From Isoptericola dokdonensis DS-3 (GTDB taxonomy: Bacteria; Actinomycetota; Actinomycetes; Actinomycetales; Cellulomonadaceae), in assembly GCF_001636295.1 (NCBI RefSeq), contig NZ_CP014209.1, forward strand, positions 2,666,001 through 2,730,000: a DNA stretch of 64,000 bases. Direction: 5' to 3'. A program made the translations under genes and the position numbers. The notes beneath the pieces were generated by a model. The model was not told where the DNA came from and did not search any database. It saw nothing but the letters and a program-made list of their open reading frames with translations. Shown here piece after piece: positions 7,335 through 63,819 of this stretch (position 1 is the first letter of the stretch; the number at the start of each line of letters is the position of its first letter).

Positions 7335-7370
7335 CAGGGTCCGCTGTTTCACGTGAAACAGCGGACCCTG
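7335..7370. terminator. parS site 5 inside a perfect 36-bp palindrome after parB
   Basis: A perfect 36-bp palindrome begins 19 bases after the parB stop. Its centre is the full 16-bp parS consensus TGTTTCACGTGAAACA (7345-7360), and the flanks CAGGGTCCGC and GCGGACCCTG form a strong stem. A moderately T-rich tail (TTGCTT) follows. It should act as the parAB terminator as well as a ParB site, matching the design after jag. Confidence 0.88.
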
Positions 7371-20558: not shown

Positions 20559-21899
20559 TCAGGCGGTGGCGCGTTCCGGGCCGGCGACCGCCGGCACGTC
20601 CGCCGCGACACGGGCGCCGCGCAACCCCAGCCACGCCGCGACCAGCACGTACGCGACGGCCAGCACGACGAACAACCCGCGCGACCAGCCGTCGTCGGGC
20701 ACCACCCAGGCCGCCAGCACCGCCGCTCCGACGAACGCCGCGTTGTACAGCACGTCGTAGAACGCGAACGCGCGGCCCCGGTAGTCGTCGTGGGTGTCGC
20801 GCTGCACGATCGTGTCGACGGCGATCTTGGCGCTCTGCGCGGGCAGGCCGAGCAACCCGGCCCCCACCAGCACCACCGTGCGCGACGGGACCGTCGCCAG
20901 CAGCAGCTGGGAGGCGGCCGCCAGCAGGAGCATCCACACGATCCAGCCCTGCGGACCCGTGCGCCGCGAGAACACCGGCGTGACCAGCACCGCCGCGGCA
21001 CCGCCGATGCCCGTCATCGCGATGACCATCGCGAAGTTCGCGAGACCCGCCGACGTGTCGCCCGGTGCGGCCAGCAGGTTGCGGGAGATGAGGATGGCGG
21101 CGATGAACACGACGCCGTAGAGGAACCGGTGCGCCGCCATGACGAGCAGACCCTGCCCCGGGGTGCGACGCGCCACCAGATAGCGGGCGCCGTCGGCCAG
21201 ACCGTGCGCCACCGCCGCGACCTCCGCCACCAGGGGTGCGCGCGACGGGTGGTCGGGACCCAGCTCGTCGCGGCCGAGGCGCAGGGTGAGCAGCGCCGCG
21301 AGCCCGAAGACCACCGACGCGCACACCAGAGCGGCCGCGTCGTGCAACCCGCCCGGAGGGATGCCGAGCCCCAGGACGAACCCGATGCCGCCACCCACGA
21401 ACAGCGCCCCCGCCCCGAGGGTCGGGGTGAGGGCGTTGGCCGTGAGCAGCAGCGGGCCGTCGACCACCCGGGGCAGGCCGGCGCTCAGGGCGGCCAGCAG
21501 GAACCGGTTGACGCTCAGCGCCACCAGGCCCAGCACGATCACGGTCGCCTCGCCGCCGCCGTCCAACCCGACCGTCAGCATCACGGTCGCCATCGTCGCC
21601 GTCACGACCACGCGCACCGCGTTGCCGACCGCCAGCACCTGACGACGGCGCCAACGGTCCAGCAGCACTCCCGCGAACGGGCCCACCAGCGTGAACGGCG
21701 CCAGCATGATCGCGAACGCGCCGGCCACCCCCGCCGCCGTGCCCGCCCGCTCGGGCGAGAAGAACAGCAGCGACGCCAGGCCCACCTGGAACATGCCGTC
21801 GCCCGCCTGCGAGACCAGCCGGACCGCGAACAGCCGGCGGAACCTCGGCAGGCGGAGCAGGTCGCGCAGGTCGTGCGCCGTCTCTCGCAGTGCCCCCAC
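20559..21899 (-). CDS. MFS transporter
   Basis: This 446-residue protein has about 12 hydrophobic helices, starting with a basic cytoplasmic N-terminus (RDLLRLPRFRRLFAVRLVSQ) and the MFS loop VLLDRWRRRQVLAV between helices 2 and 3. The pattern resembles the MFS_3-type (enterobactin exporter-like) group, and the substrate is unknown. It begins with GTG at 21899, next to a repeat-rich intergenic region, and ends 160 bases upstream of the DHA2 transporter. The 160-base gap shows no gene. Confidence 0.85.
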   Translation of the reverse strand: MGALRETAHDLRDLLRLPRFRRLFAVRLVSQAGDGMFQVGLASLLFFSPERAGTAAGVAGAFAIMLAPFTLVGPFAGVLLDRWRRRQVLAVGNAVRVVVTATMATVMLTVGLDGGGEATVIVLGLVALSVNRFLLAALSAGLPRVVDGPLLLTANALTPTLGAGALFVGGGIGFVLGLGIPPGGLHDAAALVCASVVFGLAALLTLRLGRDELGPDHPSRAPLVAEVAAVAHGLADGARYLVARRTPGQGLLVMAAHRFLYGVVFIAAILISRNLLAAPGDTSAGLANFAMVIAMTGIGGAAAVLVTPVFSRRTGPQGWIVWMLLLAAASQLLLATVPSRTVVLVGAGLLGLPAQSAKIAVDTIVQRDTHDDYRGRAFAFYDVLYNAAFVGAAVLAAWVVPDDGWSRGLFVVLAVAYVLVAAWLGLRGARVAADVPAVAGPERATA

Positions 21900-21949: not shown

Positions 21950-22258
21950 GTCAGCGCACACCGGCGCCAGTCAGCGCAAGCTCCCGCGAGTCAGCGCTCG
22001 TGGTCGTGAGTCAGCGCGGCGGGTGGTGCGTCCCGCGCGTCGTCGCGTTCACGGGCCCCAGGGGGCCCTCCACTCCGGGTCTGACGACGACGCGCGGGAC
22101 GCACCACCCGCCGTCGGCACCTCGCCGCTCGCTGGGCGAACCCGGCGTCGGCGCGAGTCAGCGCAGGCTCTCGCGAGTCAGCGTGGGCTGCGCCGAGTCA
22201 GCGCAAGGGCGCGCGAGTCAGCGCGTCCTGCGCTGACTCGCGCCGATGAGCGCTGACT
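21950..22258. repeat. Dispersed GCGAGTCAGCGC repeat cluster
   Basis: At least ten copies or close variants of the word GAGTCAGCGC or its complement occur in about 300 bases (for example near 21951, 21970, 21989, 22007, 22156, 22176, 22195, 22217, 22233 and 22250). Most read in one direction, and the last two are inverted. The same word appears at 7921-8021 and twice near 28970. It separates the MFS gene from ino1, both leftward. No gene is supportable in 21900-22395. Confidence 0.8.
22018..22112. repeat. Palindromic element A: 28-bp perfect arms, conserved loop
   Basis: The arms 22018-22045 and 22085-22112 are perfect inverted repeats of 28 bp, enclosing a 39-base loop. Read on the minus strand, the loop holds GGGCCCCCTGGGGCCCGTGA, which is shared with the loops of two palindromes inside hrpA (59943-60028 and 61587-61684). 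The arm sequences are unrelated to the hrpA arms. It lies within the GAGTCAGCGC repeat cluster. Confidence 0.85.
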
Positions 22259-22268
22259 CGCGCCGTGC

Positions 22269-22410
22269 TCGCCAGCTCGCTCCAGGTCAGCGCACACCTG
22301 GATGGTCGCGATCGTCCTGCACTCGCCAGCTCGCTCCGGACTATCGCTCCACCTGGATGGTCGCGCTGACCTTGCACTCGCCAGCTCGCTCCAGGTCAGC
22401 GCTCCACGTC
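22269..22410. repeat. 54-bp imperfect tandem repeat at the 3' end of ino1
   Basis: The phrase TCGCCAGCTCGCTCC recurs at 22269, 22323 and 22378, giving two full units of 54-55 bp and a partial third. Units differ by small blocks (AGGTCAGCGCACACC against GGACTATCGCTCCACC). The third copy runs into the last codons of ino1, whose stop is at 22396, so the array was probably seeded from or next to the gene end. Confidence 0.8.
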
Positions 22411-23487
22411 ACCGCGGATGAAGGCCTCCAGGTGCGCGCGACCCTCGGTGTCCTCCATCTGGACGGGCGGCGACTTCATGAAGTACGTCGACGCCGACAG
22501 GATGGGGCCGCCGACGCCGCGGTCCTTGGCGATCTTCGCCGCACGGATGGCGTCGATGATGATGCCGGCGGAGTTGGGGGAGTCCCACACCTCGAGCTTG
22601 TACTCCAGGTTCAGGGGCACCTCGCCGAAAGCGCGGCCCTCGAGGCGGACGTACGCCCACTTGCGGTCGTCGAGCCACGCCACGTAGTCCGACGGACCGA
22701 TGTGGACGTTGCGGTCCTCCTTCTTGCCGGCGAGGGTGCCGGTGAGGTTGGAGGTGACGGCCTGCGTCTTGGAGACCTTCTTCGACTCCAGGCGGTCGCG
22801 CTGCAGCATGTTCTTGAAGTCCATGTTGCCGCCGACGTTCAGCTGGTAGGTGCGGTCCAGCGCGACGCCGCGGTCCTCGAACAGCTTCGCGAGGACGCGG
22901 TGCGTGATGGTGGCACCCACCTGCGACTTGATGTCGTCGCCGACGATCGGCACACCGGCGTCCTCGAACTTCTTCGCCCACTCGGGGTCCGAGGCGATGA
23001 AGACGGGCAGGGCGTTGACGAAGCCGACGCCGGCGTCGATGGCGCACTGGGCGTAGAACTTGTCGGCGTCCTCGGAACCCACCGGGAGGTAGGAGACGAG
23101 CACGTCGACCTTCGCGTCCTTCAGCGCCTGCACGACGTCGACCGGGTCGCCCGAGGCCTCGTCGATGGTCGCGGCGTAGTACTGGCCGAGACCGTCCAGG
23201 GTGTGGCCCCGCTGGACGATGACGCCGGTGGGCGGCACGTCCGCGAACTTGATGGTGTTGTTCTCCGAGGCGTGGATCGCCTCGGCCAGGTCGAAGCCGA
23301 CCTTCTTCGCGTCGACGTCGAACGCCGCCACGAACTCGAGGTCCCGCACGTGGTAGTCACCGAACTGCACGTGCATGAGGCCCGGGACGGTGCTGGCGGG
23401 GTCGGCGTCGCGGTAGAACTGCACTCCCTGTACCAGGGACGACGCGCAGTTCCCGACTCCGACGATGGCAACGCGGACGGAGGTCAT
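22396..23487 (-). CDS. ino1: Inositol-3-phosphate synthase
   Basis: This 363-residue enzyme converts glucose 6-phosphate to inositol 3-phosphate with bound NAD, the first step to phosphatidylinositol and mycothiol in actinobacteria. The N-terminal [16 protein letters not shown] dinucleotide-binding motif, the [11 protein letters not shown] motif and the NVGGNMDF motif are present. Its length fits the short bacterial form. The start overlaps the stop of the upstream padR gene by four bases (ATGA), so the two are translationally coupled. Confidence 0.95.
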
Positions 23488-47747: not shown

Positions 47748-47821
47748 CGACGCGACGAGCGTGCAGGTTCGGTACCCCAAACCTCGGTTTGAGGTACCGA
47801 ACCTGCACGCTCGTTGCGTCG
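47748..47821. terminator. Long hairpin between the peptidase and ketosynthase genes
   Basis: Arms 47748-47776 and 47793-47821 are complementary over 29 bp with a single G-U position, and the 16-base loop itself folds (CAAAC / GTTTG). It lies 15 bases after the peptidase stop and 50 from the ketosynthase stop, so it would work as a bidirectional terminator. It is much longer than a terminator needs to be. Confidence 0.8.
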
Positions 47822-58924: not shown

Positions 58925-61900
58925 TCACCAGCCGCCGGGGCTGAGGATCTTGCGGATGCGCTTCTCGCTGACGCTGCCGTCGGTGCCGAGCTGCTGGGCG
59001 AACAGCGAGACGCGCAGCTCCTCCAGCAGCCAGCGGACGTCGGCGAGCTCGGCCGCGCGGGCCGGGTCGGGCGCCCCGGCCGCGTACGTCGCACGGGCCT
59101 GGGTGTACACGCCGGTGACGTCGCGGATGCGCCAGGCGAGCTCCCCGTCCCGGACCGGGTTGGCCTGCGCCTTGTCGAGCCGGTAGGAGTCGGCCCGCAG
59201 GTAGCGCACCAGGTGCGGGAGGCGCCGGGGCGGCGTCGCGGAGACGAAGCCGTCGTGCACCAGCGTGGCCACGTGCTCGCGCACGTCCTGCAACGTGCTG
59301 AGCAGCGCGAGCGACGACGACGCCCGCACCTCGCCCTCGACGGTGCGCCACGCGGTCAGCGCGGCGACCACGTGCCCGACGACGCGGTGCACCTCGTCCT
59401 CCAGGTGCTGCCGCACGAAGGTCAGCGCAGACTTGTACGACTCGGCGTCCCGAATATGTACAGCATCCGGCCCGCCTGTCGGCGTGCCGGGCGCCTTCTC
59501 ACCGTCCGGGCTGGTCAGCGCGATCACGGCGGCGAGCTGGAGGTCTGCCACGAGCGCGTCGGTGTTCTTGTACGGTGCCGCGGCGAGCGTCAGCGCCTGG
59601 TTCCCCGACCATCGCGACGACACCCGACCCGTCGCCAGCGCCACTTCGGACAGCAGCAGCCGGCGCACGCCGCGCGCGTGCACGACGTCCCGCTCGGTCA
59701 CGTCGGCCAGCACCCGCAGCGCCACCGACGGCGCAGCCTTCGATCCCGAGCCCTTCGCTCCCGGCTCCTCGACGAGCGCCGGGTACCCCCGCACCACCAC
59801 CCCGCCGCCGAGGTCCGTCGACACCGCCGCGGGCAGCACGCCGTCGGCGAGCGAAGCCGGCCACGTCGCCAACCCGGACTCCTCGCGCACCACGGAGCCC
59901 GTACCGGACGAAGCGCCGGGTGTCCCCTCCGCGGAACCGGGCGCTGAGGGTGTCGGTGCGCCGCCGTCAAGCCGTAGCGGAGGGCCCCCCGGGGCCCGTG
60001 AGCGAGGCGGCGCACCGACACCCTCAGCACCCGGCGAACCAGCCGCCTGCGCCGACGCACCAGCACCTGCCGCGGACGACGACCGTGCCTCCTCGAGCGC
60101 GAGACCCACAGCCCCCTTGACGGCGGCCCGGACCGCTTCCTCCGCCTGGGCCGCGAACCGCTTCTGGAGCGAGAGCAGGTCCTTCGACTCGCCGAGGACG
60201 ACGGGCTTGCCCGACGGTCCGGCGTCGTGGCCCCGGCCAGGTCGTCGACCGCGCCCCTTGCCGGCTCGGCCGGCACCGGTGTCGGCGGGGGCCGGACCCT
60301 CGACGCGGAACGTCATGCGCAGGTGCGCGGGCAGGCGTTCGACGCGCTCGGCGTCCCACACGTCGTCGTCGATGACGACGTCGCGCAGGGCACGCACGGC
60401 GCGCGTGAACTCGACGTGGAACGGCGGCGCCATCTCCCCGGCGCGGGTCATGTCGGACCAGGAGGGGGTGTTCTCGCGCAGCCAGCCGGCGACGGCGGCG
60501 CCGACGTCGGGCGCGGGGACGAGCTCGCGGCGGACCGCCTTGGGCAGTGACCGGATGGTGGCGACGCACAGCTCGTCGATCAGGCCGGGCACCATGCGGT
60601 CGAACCCGGCGGGGGAGACGCGGTTGAGGATCGACACGGGGACGTGCACGGTGACGCCGTCGGCGTCGGCGCCGGGGGAGAACTGGTAGGTGAGCGGCAG
60701 GGTGACCTCGCCCTGCGTCCACGTCTCCGGGAACTGGGTGGTGTCGACGGCGTCGGCGTCGACGAGCTGTGCGAGCGTGAAGGTGAGCAGGTCGGGGTCG
60801 TCCCGCTGCGCGGACTTCCACCAGGTGTCGAAGTGGCGGGCGCTGACGACGTCGGCGGGGACCCGCTCGTCGTAGAAGGCGAACAGGTCGTCCTCGGAGG
60901 CGACGAGGCCGCGCTGCCGGGACCGCGCCTCGAGCTCCTCGGCCTCGGCGAGCAGCCGCCGGTTCTCGGCGAAGAACCGATGGTGGGTCGTCCACTGGCC
61001 CTCGACGAGCGCGTGCCGGACGAACATCTCGCGGGCCGCCTCGGGGTCGACCTTGGCGAACAGCACGGGCCGGTCGGCGACGATGGGCACGCCGTAGAGC
61101 AGCACCTTCTCCGTCGCCATGGCGGCGCCCTGCCGGGTGGACCAGTGCGGGTCGGAGTAGGTGCGCTTCGCGAGGTCGCCGGCGAGCGACTCGGCCCACT
61201 CGGGCTGGATCTTCGCGACGTCGCGCGCCCACAGCCGGGACGTCTCGACGAGCTCGCCCGCCATGATCCACTCGGGCGGCTTCTTGCTCAGCGGCGACCC
61301 GGGGAAGATCGCGAACCGCGCCCCGCGCGCGCCCAGGTACTCGTTGCGGGCCCGCTTCGCGGCCTGCCGCAGCGCCCGGGCCCGCGCCTCGCCCCGCAGG
61401 TGCGCGACGGAGGACGCCTTGATCTCCCCGGTGTCCTGCATCCCGATCTGCGACAGCATGCCGCTCAGCAGCGCCCGGTGCACGGTGTCGCCGTCCCAGA
61501 CGCGCCGCCAGTCCTGCGTGTCCCCTCCGGCTGTCGCGTCTCTGCCATCCGACGCCGGTCGAGAGTCGTCCGTGCCATTCGACGAAGCGGGTCCGGTGGA
61601 GGTCGGTGCGCCGCCGTCAAGCCGTAGCGGAGGGCCCCCTGGGGCCCGTGAGCGAGGCGGCGCACCGACCTCCACCGGACCCGCGGCCCGCGGACGGTAC
61701 GAGATGTCGATGTCGAGCTGCTTCGCCATCTGGCGGAGCTGCGCGACGACGTCCTGCCACTCGCGGATGCGCAGGAAGTTGAGGTGCTCGGACTTGCAGA
61801 GGCGGCGGAACGCCGACGACCCCATGGCGTGCTGCTGCTCGCGCAGGTACTCCCAGAGGTTGAGGTAGCTGAGGAAGTCCGACGTCGGGTCGGTGAACCG

Positions 61901-63706
61901 GCGGTGGAGCTGGTCGGCCTGCTCGCGGCCCTCGGCGGGACGTTCGCGCGGGTCCTGGATGGACAGGGCGGCGGCGATGATCGCGACCTCGTGGGCGACG
62001 CCGAGCCTCGCGCCCTCGATGACCATGCGGGCGAGCCGGGGGTCCATGGGGAGGCGGGCGAGGGTGCGGCCGACGTCGGTGAGGTGCACGTCGTTCGACG
62101 CCGTGCCGTCGCGCCCGTGTCGACGGCCGAGCGCGCCGAGCTCGGTGAGGAGCTGGACGCCGTCGCGCACGGAGCGCGTGTCCGGGGGTTCGACGAAGGG
62201 GAACTTGGCGACGTCGTCGGGGGTGGCGACGACCCCGACGGAGATCATCTGGAGCAGCACGGACGCGAGCGAGGTCCGCAGGATCTCCGGTTCGGTGAAC
62301 TCGGGGCGGGACACGTAGTCGTCGGCGGAGTAGAGGCGGATCGCGACGCCGTCGGCGACGCGGCCGGAGCGGCCGGAGCGCTGGTTCGCGGACGCCTGGC
62401 TGATGGGCTCGATGGGGAGCCGCTGCACCTTGGTCGCCTTGGAGTAGCGGGAGATGCGGGCGGTGCCGGGGTCGACGACGTAGTGGATGCCGGGCACCGT
62501 CAGGGACGTCTCGGCGACGTTGGTGGACAGCACGATGCGGCGGCCGGGGTGCGACTGGAAGACGCGGTGCTGCTCGGCGGCGGACAGTCGCGAGTACAGC
62601 GGCAGGATCTCGACGTGCTGCGGGTGCTTGACGTCCCGCACGCGCTCCTTGAGGTGACCTTCGAGGGCGTCGGCGGCGTCGTGGATCTCCCGCTCGCCGG
62701 ACAGGAAGACGAGGATGTCGCCGGGGCCCTCGCGCATCAGCTCGTCGCAGGCCTCGACGATGCCGGTGACGAGGTCCTTCTCCTCGCCCTTCTTCTTGGC
62801 GGGGGCCGCCGGGTCGGGGTCCGGGGTGAGGGGGCGGTACCGGATCTCGACGGGGTAGGTGCGCCCGGAGACCTCGACGACGGGGGCGGCGTCGGGCAGG
62901 ACGTCGACGACGGCCTGCGGGGCCCCGCCGATCTCGGCGAGGTGCGACGGCGAGAAGTGCTCGGCGAACCGCGCGGAGTCGATCGTCGCGGACGTGATGA
63001 CGACCTTGAGGTCGGGGCGGCGCGGCAGCAGGCGGGAGAGGTAGCCGAGCAGGAAGTCGATGTTGAGGGACCGCTCGTGCGCCTCGTCGATGACGATGGT
63101 GTCGTAGGCGAGCAGGTCGGGGTCGCGCTGGATCTGCGCGAGGAGGATGCCGTCCGTCATCACCTTGACGAGGGTGTCCTCGCCGGACGTGTCCGTGAAC
63201 CGCACCTGGTACCCGACGACGCCGCCCAGCTCGCCCCCGAGCTCCTCGGCGATGCGCTCGGCCACGGAGCGGGCCGCGATGCGGCGGGGCTGGGTGTGCC
63301 CGATCTGCCCGGCGCGGCCCCGGCCGAGGTCGAGGAGGATCTTCGGCAGCTGCGTCGTCTTGCCGGAGCCGGTCTCGCCCGCGACGATCACGACCTGGTG
63401 CTCGCGGATCGCGTCGGCGATCTCCGCACGGCGGGCGGAGACGGGGAGCTGCTCGGGGTAGACGATGGGCGGGACGACGACGGCGGCGCGCAGCGCTGCC
63501 GCCTTGTCGAGCTGCTCACGGCTGACGCGTGCGGGCCCCCCGGTGCGGGCGCGGCCCTGGCCGGTGCGGCGTCCGCGACGTCGGCCCTCGCCCCGGCCGC
63601 CGTCCTGGCGCCGCTCGCCGTGCGCCGCGCCGTCCGGGTGCGGACGGCGGTCAGGAGTGTCGCCGTCCGTGCGGGACGATGCGGCGGGGGAGGGCTCGGT
63701 GCTCAC
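58925..63706 (-). CDS. hrpA: ATP-dependent RNA helicase HrpA (DEAH family)
   Basis: This 1,593-residue helicase is longer than the roughly 1,300 residues usual for HrpA. After a basic Arg/Gly-rich start come Walker A GETGSGKT (110-117), DEAH (207-210), SAT, and QRSGRSGRVADG (motif VI), then helicase-associated domains and the HrpA-specific C-terminus (DUF3418) ending RIRKILSPGGW. Two palindromic inserts encode the same peptide (VGAPPRSRAPGGPPLRLDG) at about 675-707 and 1227-1255, explaining part of the extra length. HrpA unwinds RNA and rescues stalled ribosomes in other bacteria. GTG start at 63706. Confidence 0.93.
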   Translation of the reverse strand: MSTEPSPAASSRTDGDTPDRRPHPDGAAHGERRQDGGRGEGRRRGRRTGQGRARTGGPARVSREQLDKAAALRAAVVVPPIVYPEQLPVSARRAEIADAIREHQVVIVAGETGSGKTTQLPKILLDLGRGRAGQIGHTQPRRIAARSVAERIAEELGGELGGVVGYQVRFTDTSGEDTLVKVMTDGILLAQIQRDPDLLAYDTIVIDEAHERSLNIDFLLGYLSRLLPRRPDLKVVITSATIDSARFAEHFSPSHLAEIGGAPQAVVDVLPDAAPVVEVSGRTYPVEIRYRPLTPDPDPAAPAKKKGEEKDLVTGIVEACDELMREGPGDILVFLSGEREIHDAADALEGHLKERVRDVKHPQHVEILPLYSRLSAAEQHRVFQSHPGRRIVLSTNVAETSLTVPGIHYVVDPGTARISRYSKATKVQRLPIEPISQASANQRSGRSGRVADGVAIRLYSADDYVSRPEFTEPEILRTSLASVLLQMISVGVVATPDDVAKFPFVEPPDTRSVRDGVQLLTELGALGRRHGRDGTASNDVHLTDVGRTLARLPMDPRLARMVIEGARLGVAHEVAIIAAALSIQDPRERPAEGREQADQLHRRFTDPTSDFLSYLNLWEYLREQQHAMGSSAFRRLCKSEHLNFLRIREWQDVVAQLRQMAKQLDIDISYRPRAAGPVEVGAPPRSRAPGGPPLRLDGGAPTSTGPASSNGTDDSRPASDGRDATAGGDTQDWRRVWDGDTVHRALLSGMLSQIGMQDTGEIKASSVAHLRGEARARALRQAAKRARNEYLGARGARFAIFPGSPLSKKPPEWIMAGELVETSRLWARDVAKIQPEWAESLAGDLAKRTYSDPHWSTRQGAAMATEKVLLYGVPIVADRPVLFAKVDPEAAREMFVRHALVEGQWTTHHRFFAENRRLLAEAEELEARSRQRGLVASEDDLFAFYDERVPADVVSARHFDTWWKSAQRDDPDLLTFTLAQLVDADAVDTTQFPETWTQGEVTLPLTYQFSPGADADGVTVHVPVSILNRVSPAGFDRMVPGLIDELCVATIRSLPKAVRRELVPAPDVGAAVAGWLRENTPSWSDMTRAGEMAPPFHVEFTRAVRALRDVVIDDDVWDAERVERLPAHLRMTFRVEGPAPADTGAGRAGKGRGRRPGRGHDAGPSGKPVVLGESKDLLSLQKRFAAQAEEAVRAAVKGAVGLALEEARSSSAAGAGASAQAAGSPGAEGVGAPPRSRAPGGPPLRLDGGAPTPSAPGSAEGTPGASSGTGSVVREESGLATWPASLADGVLPAAVSTDLGGGVVVRGYPALVEEPGAKGSGSKAAPSVALRVLADVTERDVVHARGVRRLLLSEVALATGRVSSRWSGNQALTLAAAPYKNTDALVADLQLAAVIALTSPDGEKAPGTPTGGPDAVHIRDAESYKSALTFVRQHLEDEVHRVVGHVVAALTAWRTVEGEVRASSSLALLSTLQDVREHVATLVHDGFVSATPPRRLPHLVRYLRADSYRLDKAQANPVRDGELAWRIRDVTGVYTQARATYAAGAPDPARAAELADVRWLLEELRVSLFAQQLGTDGSVSEKRIRKILSPGGW
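59943..60028. repeat. Palindromic element B, in frame within hrpA
   Basis: Perfect 23-bp arms (59943-59965 and 60006-60028) enclose a 40-base loop that differs from the loop of element C at a single base. The inner arm GTCGGTGCGCCGCC is shared with C but the outer nine bases are not. It adds no stop or frameshift to hrpA and lies in an Ala/Gly-rich linker. Confidence 0.9.
61587..61684. repeat. Palindromic element C, in frame within hrpA
   Basis: Perfect 29-bp arms (61587-61615 and 61656-61684) enclose a 40-base loop beginning GTCAAGCCGTAGCGGAGGGC. It is 1.6 kb from element B in the same orientation, and its loop is the same except for one base. The outer arm bases are unique to this copy and perfectly matched. 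In HrpA it lies in a linker after YRPRAAGPVE. Confidence 0.9.
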
Positions 63707-63819
63707 GGCGCACCATTCTCCCAGCCGGTGCAAACCGTTATCCCCACCGGGCGTGGACAGGGGGTGCGCACGCCCCTGACCTCCTGACATGCTCGGACAG
63801 GGACGAGGGAGGGCGACCG

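Follow-up and report, generated by a model that had tools for sequence, protein, structure and literature searches.

How can a dispersed palindrome keep its loop while its arms change from copy to copy and yet stay matched? The question is raised by three palindromes of Isoptericola dokdonensis DS-3 (here G000), whose genome is one contig of 3,826,972 bases and in which we analysed a stretch of 64,000 nucleotides (positions 2666001-2730000; hereafter, the window). An inverted-repeat scan of the window re-found the three palindromes independently and, together with searches for their core, bore out the initial annotation, which had described a shared loop core between differing arms. The exact 20-base core lies at 22049-22068 (- strand), 59982-60001 (+) and 61632-61651 (+); allowing up to three mismatches, the window holds five core matches, two of which are not elements of their own, against a mean of 0.81 in shuffled sequence. 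The elements and the genes around them are the following.

22017..22113, - strand: element 1, a tip-bearing palindrome (arms 22017-22045 and 22085-22113, tip 22046-22084; covariance-model match G000:C1:2688014-2688116)
59937..60034, + strand: element 2, a tip-bearing palindrome lying in frame within an HrpA-type gene (arms 59937-59965 and 60006-60034, tip 59966-60005; covariance-model match G000:C1:2725935-2726036)
61587..61684, + strand: element 3, a tip-bearing palindrome lying in frame in the same gene as element 2 (arms 61587-61615 and 61656-61684, tip 61616-61655; covariance-model match G000:C1:2727585-2727686)
20559..21899, - strand: MFS-type transporter gene, downstream neighbour of element 1 (MFS_1 match under the Pfam cut-off)
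22396..23487, - strand: myo-inositol-1-phosphate synthase gene, upstream neighbour of element 1
58925..63790, - strand: HrpA-type DEAH helicase gene (DUF3418, OB_NTP_bind, HA2), with elements 2 and 3 in variable linkers

Each of the three has arms of 29 bp. The earlier statement that every arm pair is perfect holds for elements 1 and 3 (100% matched) and for the inner 23 bp of element 2, but not for the full 29 bp of the latter (97%, one mismatch). The elements at 59937 and 61587, which sit in one host gene, have the inner 14 bp of their arms in common, while element 1 occupies the gap between the inositol-phosphate synthase and transporter genes.

The family extends far beyond the window. Across the genome the core occurs 21 times exactly and 40 times with up to two mismatches (GCGCCC..GGGCGC subtype included), compared to a single match for the reversed pattern, and a covariance model built from 25 copies finds at least 55 distinct copies (69 rows, 14 of them other-strand readings of the same places). 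The genome-wide loop search proposed with the initial annotation thus leads to 55 places rather than three, and the restriction to three sites, which that annotation had regarded as the mark of an old duplication, does not hold. Because a limited number of candidates was scored per genome (150 in this genome, 105 in a search of 38 genomes and 16 in an order-wide search), all copy numbers are lower bounds. In the 38-genome search, the family was present in 18 of 18 genomes of the genus, with at least 2 to at least 68 rows each, as well as in two of six other genera of the taxonomic family, whereas none of 14 genomes from other families matched. A stricter order-wide search matched 6 of 248 genomes, all from this genus, and gave no match in 13 genomes from other genera of the family. 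One of the two additional matching genera may be Promicromonospora, and the tip is also present in the helicase gene of Promicromonospora loci; judged by that gene, the nearest named relatives are Isoptericola species first. Ten sister species carry just 2-7 detected copies each (lower bounds again), so the element is not a general requirement. Viral contigs gave no match to one exact degenerate core pattern, and plasmids gave none with a single element as the query. A search of the literature by title or abstract start, with subscription journals mostly outside its coverage, returned no description of such an element.

The anatomy was read from 135 copies, comprising 55 from this genome (102 rows after removal of other-strand readings, double listings of overlapping loci and three partial rows) and 80 from relatives (118 rows from 71 chosen sources, minus 38 other-strand readings). 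In each element a stem, with arms of 25-35 bp in 132 of the 135 copies, carries an asymmetric, conserved tip 38-42 nt long. Along the motif strand the first arm, which mostly ends in GTCG, gives way to some 16 nt (TC....CCSRRAGYGGA); the inner stem comes next, then GTGARCG and finally the second arm. The inner stem appears as GGGCCC, GCGCCC, GGGCGC, GGTCGC and other variants, each with its complement, and is closed by a loop of 3-4 nt. What the initial annotation called a conserved loop is shared in its core and is not a simple loop, since it folds into an inner stem (about 6 bp) with an asymmetric internal loop, for which a k-turn reading was considered by eye and dropped. The internal pair beside the tip stem is TA in 98 copies, CG in 26, GG in 8, CA in 2 and GA in 1; we read the eight GG rows as a text-pattern slip on C-G copies, which would make this pair T-A or C-G nearly everywhere.

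Pairing along the stem is close to complete. In the 25 model copies, 99.2% of 900 pair cells are paired, and changes on both sides are seen in 25 of 36 pairs (23 of 28 in the arms, 1 of 2 internal and 1 of 6 in the inner stem); none of 500 shuffles scored as high, and slid controls were 35-48% paired. Among 4007 arm pairs of the full set, 3886 are Watson-Crick, 54 G.T, 20 A.C and 47 other, with 58 of the 135 copies perfect over the delimited arm. Sequence identity follows a different course: among the 55 own copies it reaches 75% over the inner 11 bp and falls to 48% over the outer 15 bp, against 43% expected from composition. With identity near random and pairing near complete, the outer stem is conserved mainly in its pairing and not in its sequence. 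The arms, which had been described as locally unique, are so in their outer 15 bp but not in their inner 11 bp, and outer-arm identity rules out an ordinary dispersed repeat with conserved arms, save for a similar-arm subset (67 of 1485 own copy pairs with at least 80% arm identity).

Similarity can extend into the flanks: for many copies, 250-580 nt of flanking sequence with GCGCTGACTCG boxes is alike at different loci. Element 1 is itself surrounded by many GCGCTGACTCG/CGAGTCAGCGC boxes (window 21950-22400), and boxes of the GCGCTGACTCG type flank many other copies, inside the regions that are alike between loci, in both this genome and its sister.

The initial annotation made no mention of two further features that are seen here, namely that copies flank the 3′ ends of genes in one set orientation and that two lie in frame inside a gene. 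Using gene calls from our own codon-usage finder, trained on the window and not curated, we placed 51 of the 55 own copies between genes and four inside predicted ORFs: hrpA holds two, a long ORF at 2785493 a third, and the fourth is at 2953660. Convergent gaps host 37 of the 51 intergenic copies, compared to 41 of 258 background gaps in the window and 27 fetched stretches. In all 37 convergent copies the 3′ side of the motif is the one nearer the opposing stop codon (p=1.5e-11; median 43 versus 210 nt), and 43 of the 51 intergenic copies have an antisense gene on that side. Element 1 is among the eight that do not, being an exception in placement with co-directed genes on either side, 283 nt past the inositol-phosphate synthase stop. 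Copies within 700 nt of each other are arranged in '- then +' order in five of five cases here and in six of six among the matches listed for the sister genome G010, and therefore each of two facing genes can own a copy. The 80 copies from relatives comprise 48 in convergent gaps, 9 anti/anti, 8 same/same, 1 with one side undefined and 14 inside ORFs. So strict an orientation towards the nearer stop suggests a function linked to the direction of transcription. The genes concerned show no common theme among the 10 neighbouring proteins scanned.

Hairpins that lack the tip also stand at gene ends in this genome: 39 rows, about 31 of them distinct, were found 0-62 nt past stops, long and locus-specific, with arms of 11-36 bp and mostly loops of 0-9 nt. 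Other palindromes were encountered along the way. At 2850-2891 and 7335-7370 of the window, GTTTCACGTGAAAC is centred in longer locus-specific palindromes behind genes, forming another conserved core with unique matched arms; these cores resemble parS. A different dispersed palindrome, TTCGGTCG..TCACCGGTTCGGTC, stands at gene ends in L278 (near 6049) and L283 (near 6729 and 8021), while long palindromes at 47748-47821 of the window and in L277 (near 16585) share ACGAGCGTGC near the stem start.

Comparison with relatives, which the initial annotation had suggested as a check on whether orthologous loci have the same arms, revealed that they mostly carry different, still matched arms, so an old duplication with fixed arms does not account for the family. 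Sister genome G010 has a tip-bearing copy at 23 own loci (pair list) and at eight more, lacks the tip at six (L105, L049, L040, L034, L098 and L038) and holds five copies without a counterpart in this genome; the eight and the six belong to a set of 24 loci tried against it, of which the remaining 10 have no two-sided match and decide nothing. The 23 shared loci provide 27 copy pairs and 744 stem pairs, of which 612 are the same in both genomes; 97 differ in both arms and 35 in a single arm. This comparison favours 'same', since at two-copy loci the partner was picked by arm similarity. The tips at these loci are 0.95 identical (19 of the 27 copy pairs, those of equal tip length). The excess of two-arm over one-arm changes, together with the covariation, supports selection on the stem, one of the origins proposed in the initial annotation.

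Inside hrpA, elements 2 and 3 encode extra VGAPPRSRAPGGPPLRLDGGAPT peptides in the helicase linkers. Of 13 named Isoptericola loci, 5 (L109, L110, L111, L113 and L116) have a copy at site 2, as do, with other arms and tip subtypes, Promicromonospora L124, L125, L128, L129, L139 and L152; site 1 holds a reverse-orientation copy in L110 and, in G010, the same tip with 30 bp of a different arm. Three tip-less hrpA linkers show no palindrome by eye. A different repeated insert is found in mostly Cellulosimicrobium hrpA linkers (L120, L121, L131, L142 and L159) and in Isoptericola luteus L114, encoding peptides like DAKGVEGLAGAPRGTSGADGSPST on one strand and containing an inner hairpin GCRCCGYGAGGAACGAGCGGYGC; as its outer arms are weakly matched, we did not count it as the same layout.

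Element 3 in this gene bears most directly on how arms may be renewed, through two stretches of its stem.

61587..61599, + strand: outer left arm of element 3, an inverted copy of 61672-61684 that is absent from that side in the sister
61672..61684, + strand: outer right arm of element 3, read as flank DNA, with its CCACCGGAC part common with the sister flank

In G010, CCACCGGAC is found on just one side, within a few bases of the conserved GGTACGAG; G000 has CCACCGGACCCGC at that flank position and its inverted copy on the other side. In other words, 13 nt of hrpA flank are duplicated in inverted form, and 9 of these 13 nt are recognisable in the sister, on one side only. The plainest reading of the alignment is that the G000 arm grew outward by copying of flanking DNA from one side to the other, although the reverse polarity may also hold. 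The template-switch formation envisaged in the initial annotation is accordingly suggested at this one copy (61587, with its inverted 13-nt flank), where copying from arm to arm is fairly clear; elsewhere, stepwise compensation would do.

Loci without the tip speak to its gain or loss. Among 11 tip-less orthologous gaps from both sisters, a plain hairpin related in its arms or apex is present at L098 and L105 only; the hairpins at L034, L207 and L215 are unrelated, none is listed for the rest, and L040 was too long for the scan. At several of these gaps the difference amounts to a few hundred bases, more than the tip itself, which agrees with a larger unit having been gained or lost. At L098, G010 has a plain hairpin with nearly the same arms, at the centre of which G000 carries 48 nt (by eye); alternatively, the difference reads as 40 nt plus an 8-bp repeat, GACCGGTC, itself palindromic and possibly a target-site duplication at this one locus. 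A survey in which stops were located by text pattern and the best hairpin was taken per genome found the tip at the L098 gene in 3 of 17 genomes (G000, G017 and G002) and at the rpoC 3′ end in 4 of 17 (G000, G008, G009 and G017), there with partly similar, matched arms; it is missing from the best hairpins of the other 13, and, judged by eye, most of the G012 hairpin has been lost by deletion. On a 17-genome tree built from rpoC and ino1 pieces, the rpoC tip falls in three subclades of one clade (support 84/76), a spread that makes loss at least as likely as gain; at L098 and L105, too, loss of the tip seems at least as plausible as its gain. On the 3′ side of ino1, the tip is confined to G000 and G010 among 16 readable genomes (two further contigs end there), and the hairpins listed for the other 14 lack it.

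These observations can be set against several explanations. In one, a mobile tip, about 40-48 nt long, enters pre-existing terminator hairpins at their apex, the arms being the stems of the host terminators. The plain gene-end hairpins of this genome, already long and locus-specific, would supply such targets, and both the 48-nt difference at L098 and the patchy presence at rpoC agree with it. Nevertheless, we consider it unlikely: a related plain hairpin is present at just 2 of the 11 tip-less gaps, several gaps differ by more than the tip, the rpoC distribution fits an old tip lost several times, the 8-bp repeat at L098 permits loss by slippage, and the three tip-less hrpA linkers show no palindrome by eye. 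Moreover, palindromic targets should accept the tip in both orientations, yet its orientation is fixed. The targeting by way of flanking DNA suggested in the initial annotation is weakened in the same manner, as its two supporting gaps look as much like loss. More improbable still is a relative of this idea in which the tip module of about 40-48 nt is its own genetic unit, gained at the apices of gene-end hairpins with an orientation set by transcription, while the stem is host DNA continually rewritten arm from arm, such that pairing is inherited and sequence is not. The count of 2 in 11 lowers the odds of both proposals and raises those of a repeat, which in its pure form would be selfish or neutral, with arms matched only via template-switch repair and gene-end placement resulting from purging elsewhere. 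The rows per genome, the paired arm changes at shared loci, the flank-to-arm copy of element 3 and the larger intergenic repeat that carries a subset of copies are in keeping with it, and REPs likewise stand at gene ends according to one account (PMC3733652). We think this pure form improbable, since purging leaves the single orientation of 37 out of 37 copies unexplained, as it does the conserved tip beside 82% unchanged stem pairs at shared loci.

A structured RNA (for example, a 3′-UTR or antisense regulatory RNA), in which the tip would be the binding site for a protein or ligand and the stem only a scaffold, appears no more probable than the purely selfish repeat. It could account for the conserved tip with its covarying internal pair, the orientation rule and the type of mismatch. 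Over the first 28 pairs of the motif strand, G.T exceeds A.C by 17:4 in own copies (p=0.007) and by 33:11 in those of relatives (p=0.001), the copies not all being independent, compared to 20:14 in plain hairpins read in gene sense (n=62). This hints that the motif-strand RNA, antisense toward the 3′ end of the nearer gene, is the strand that must fold, but the excess may reflect a strand bias of mutation rather than selection. G.U pairs are nevertheless rare (54 of 4007) for an RNA stem selected on one strand only, and the neighbouring proteins offer no common theme. RNA folding of six tips on both strands gave no consistent preference for one of them, and in a comparison of 20 out of 30 loci with Rfam 15, no family reached its gathering score on the element; sub-gathering matches overlapping elements (mir-Ro6-3 in L013 and asX3 in L028) were taken as chance. 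The sole gathering-level match, to the Guanidine-II riboswitch (L027:1665-1713; 32.6 versus a gathering score of 32 bits), lies about 110 nt beyond an element copy.

Intrinsic and bidirectional terminators of high-GC actinobacteria are one known system with which the elements may be compared. The two are alike in position, and the elements have the look of the plain hairpins of this genome, as GC-rich hairpins shortly past a stop codon (median 43 nt for the 37 convergent copies). They differ from terminators in having a conserved 40-nt tip, a single orientation and no T-run; indeed, no such run was seen by eye in either flank of the 55 copies, and, as none follows on either strand, these are not textbook intrinsic terminators.

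The element looks like a variant of the repeat hairpins known from gene ends in other bacteria. According to PMC3733652, REPs (GTAG- or CGTC-tagged) have stems of 5-13 bp with family-specific sequence and loops of 2-20 nt. They adjoin the 3′ ends of genes, mainly where neighbouring genes converge or run in one direction; they often form pairs of opposite orientation, and some occur within genes. By that description, both are dispersed palindromes near gene 3′ ends, with oppositely oriented pairs and some copies in genes, and the excess of our copies in convergent gaps corresponds to REP placement; unlike REPs, the present elements have stems that are longer (mostly 25-35 bp) and free in sequence, topped by a structured tip of 38-42 nt. 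No common GTAG or CGTC tag was seen by eye outside the stem in the 55 own copies with 40-nt flanks. The Y1/RAYT transposase family (PF01797), which goes with the GTAG type of REP only, was not found in any of the 18 genomes of the genus, with the control positive in 5 of 14; RAYT-driven REP membership is therefore not supported, and this transposase was rejected as the mobiliser. Rickettsia palindromic elements (RPEs), as described in PMC3733652, are palindromic inserts lying in frame in coding genes, which recalls the two hrpA copies and the one in the ORF at 2785493; RPEs belong to another phylum, and in our elements the arms are not conserved between copies. Perfect inverted repeats are also kept in coding genes of Nematomorpha mitochondria, the abstract of that report naming no shared conserved tip for these coding palindromes (PMC6649704).

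Taken together, we favour, at roughly even chances, a REP/RPE-like dispersed hairpin family with a role at gene ends, a stem under selection for pairing and an old spread. Slightly less firmly, we propose that the element is a gene-end hairpin whose effect depends on orientation, most probably a terminator or insulator, and that the tip is the part recognised. Such a hairpin would keep transcription from entering the neighbouring gene through its 3′ end. Selection for pairing would maintain the stem, aided now and then by the copying of one arm from its partner as the DNA replicates, and the family would have spread long ago as a REP/RPE-like repeat and multiplied in the lineage that G000 shares with G010. 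The helicase-gene copies are hard to square with termination in that gene. While the copy number, the anatomy and covariation, the shared positions with changing arms, the one-orientation placement at gene ends and the in-frame copies were observed directly, it is function, mobility and a general role of template switching that we infer from them.

With tens of loci in 18 genomes, this family is a natural series in which a conserved tip can be traced together with a stem that varies freely but stays paired. Such a series makes it possible to test how near-perfect palindromes are maintained in bacteria, by stepwise compensation or by arm-to-arm copying, and what purpose dispersed hairpins serve at gene ends.
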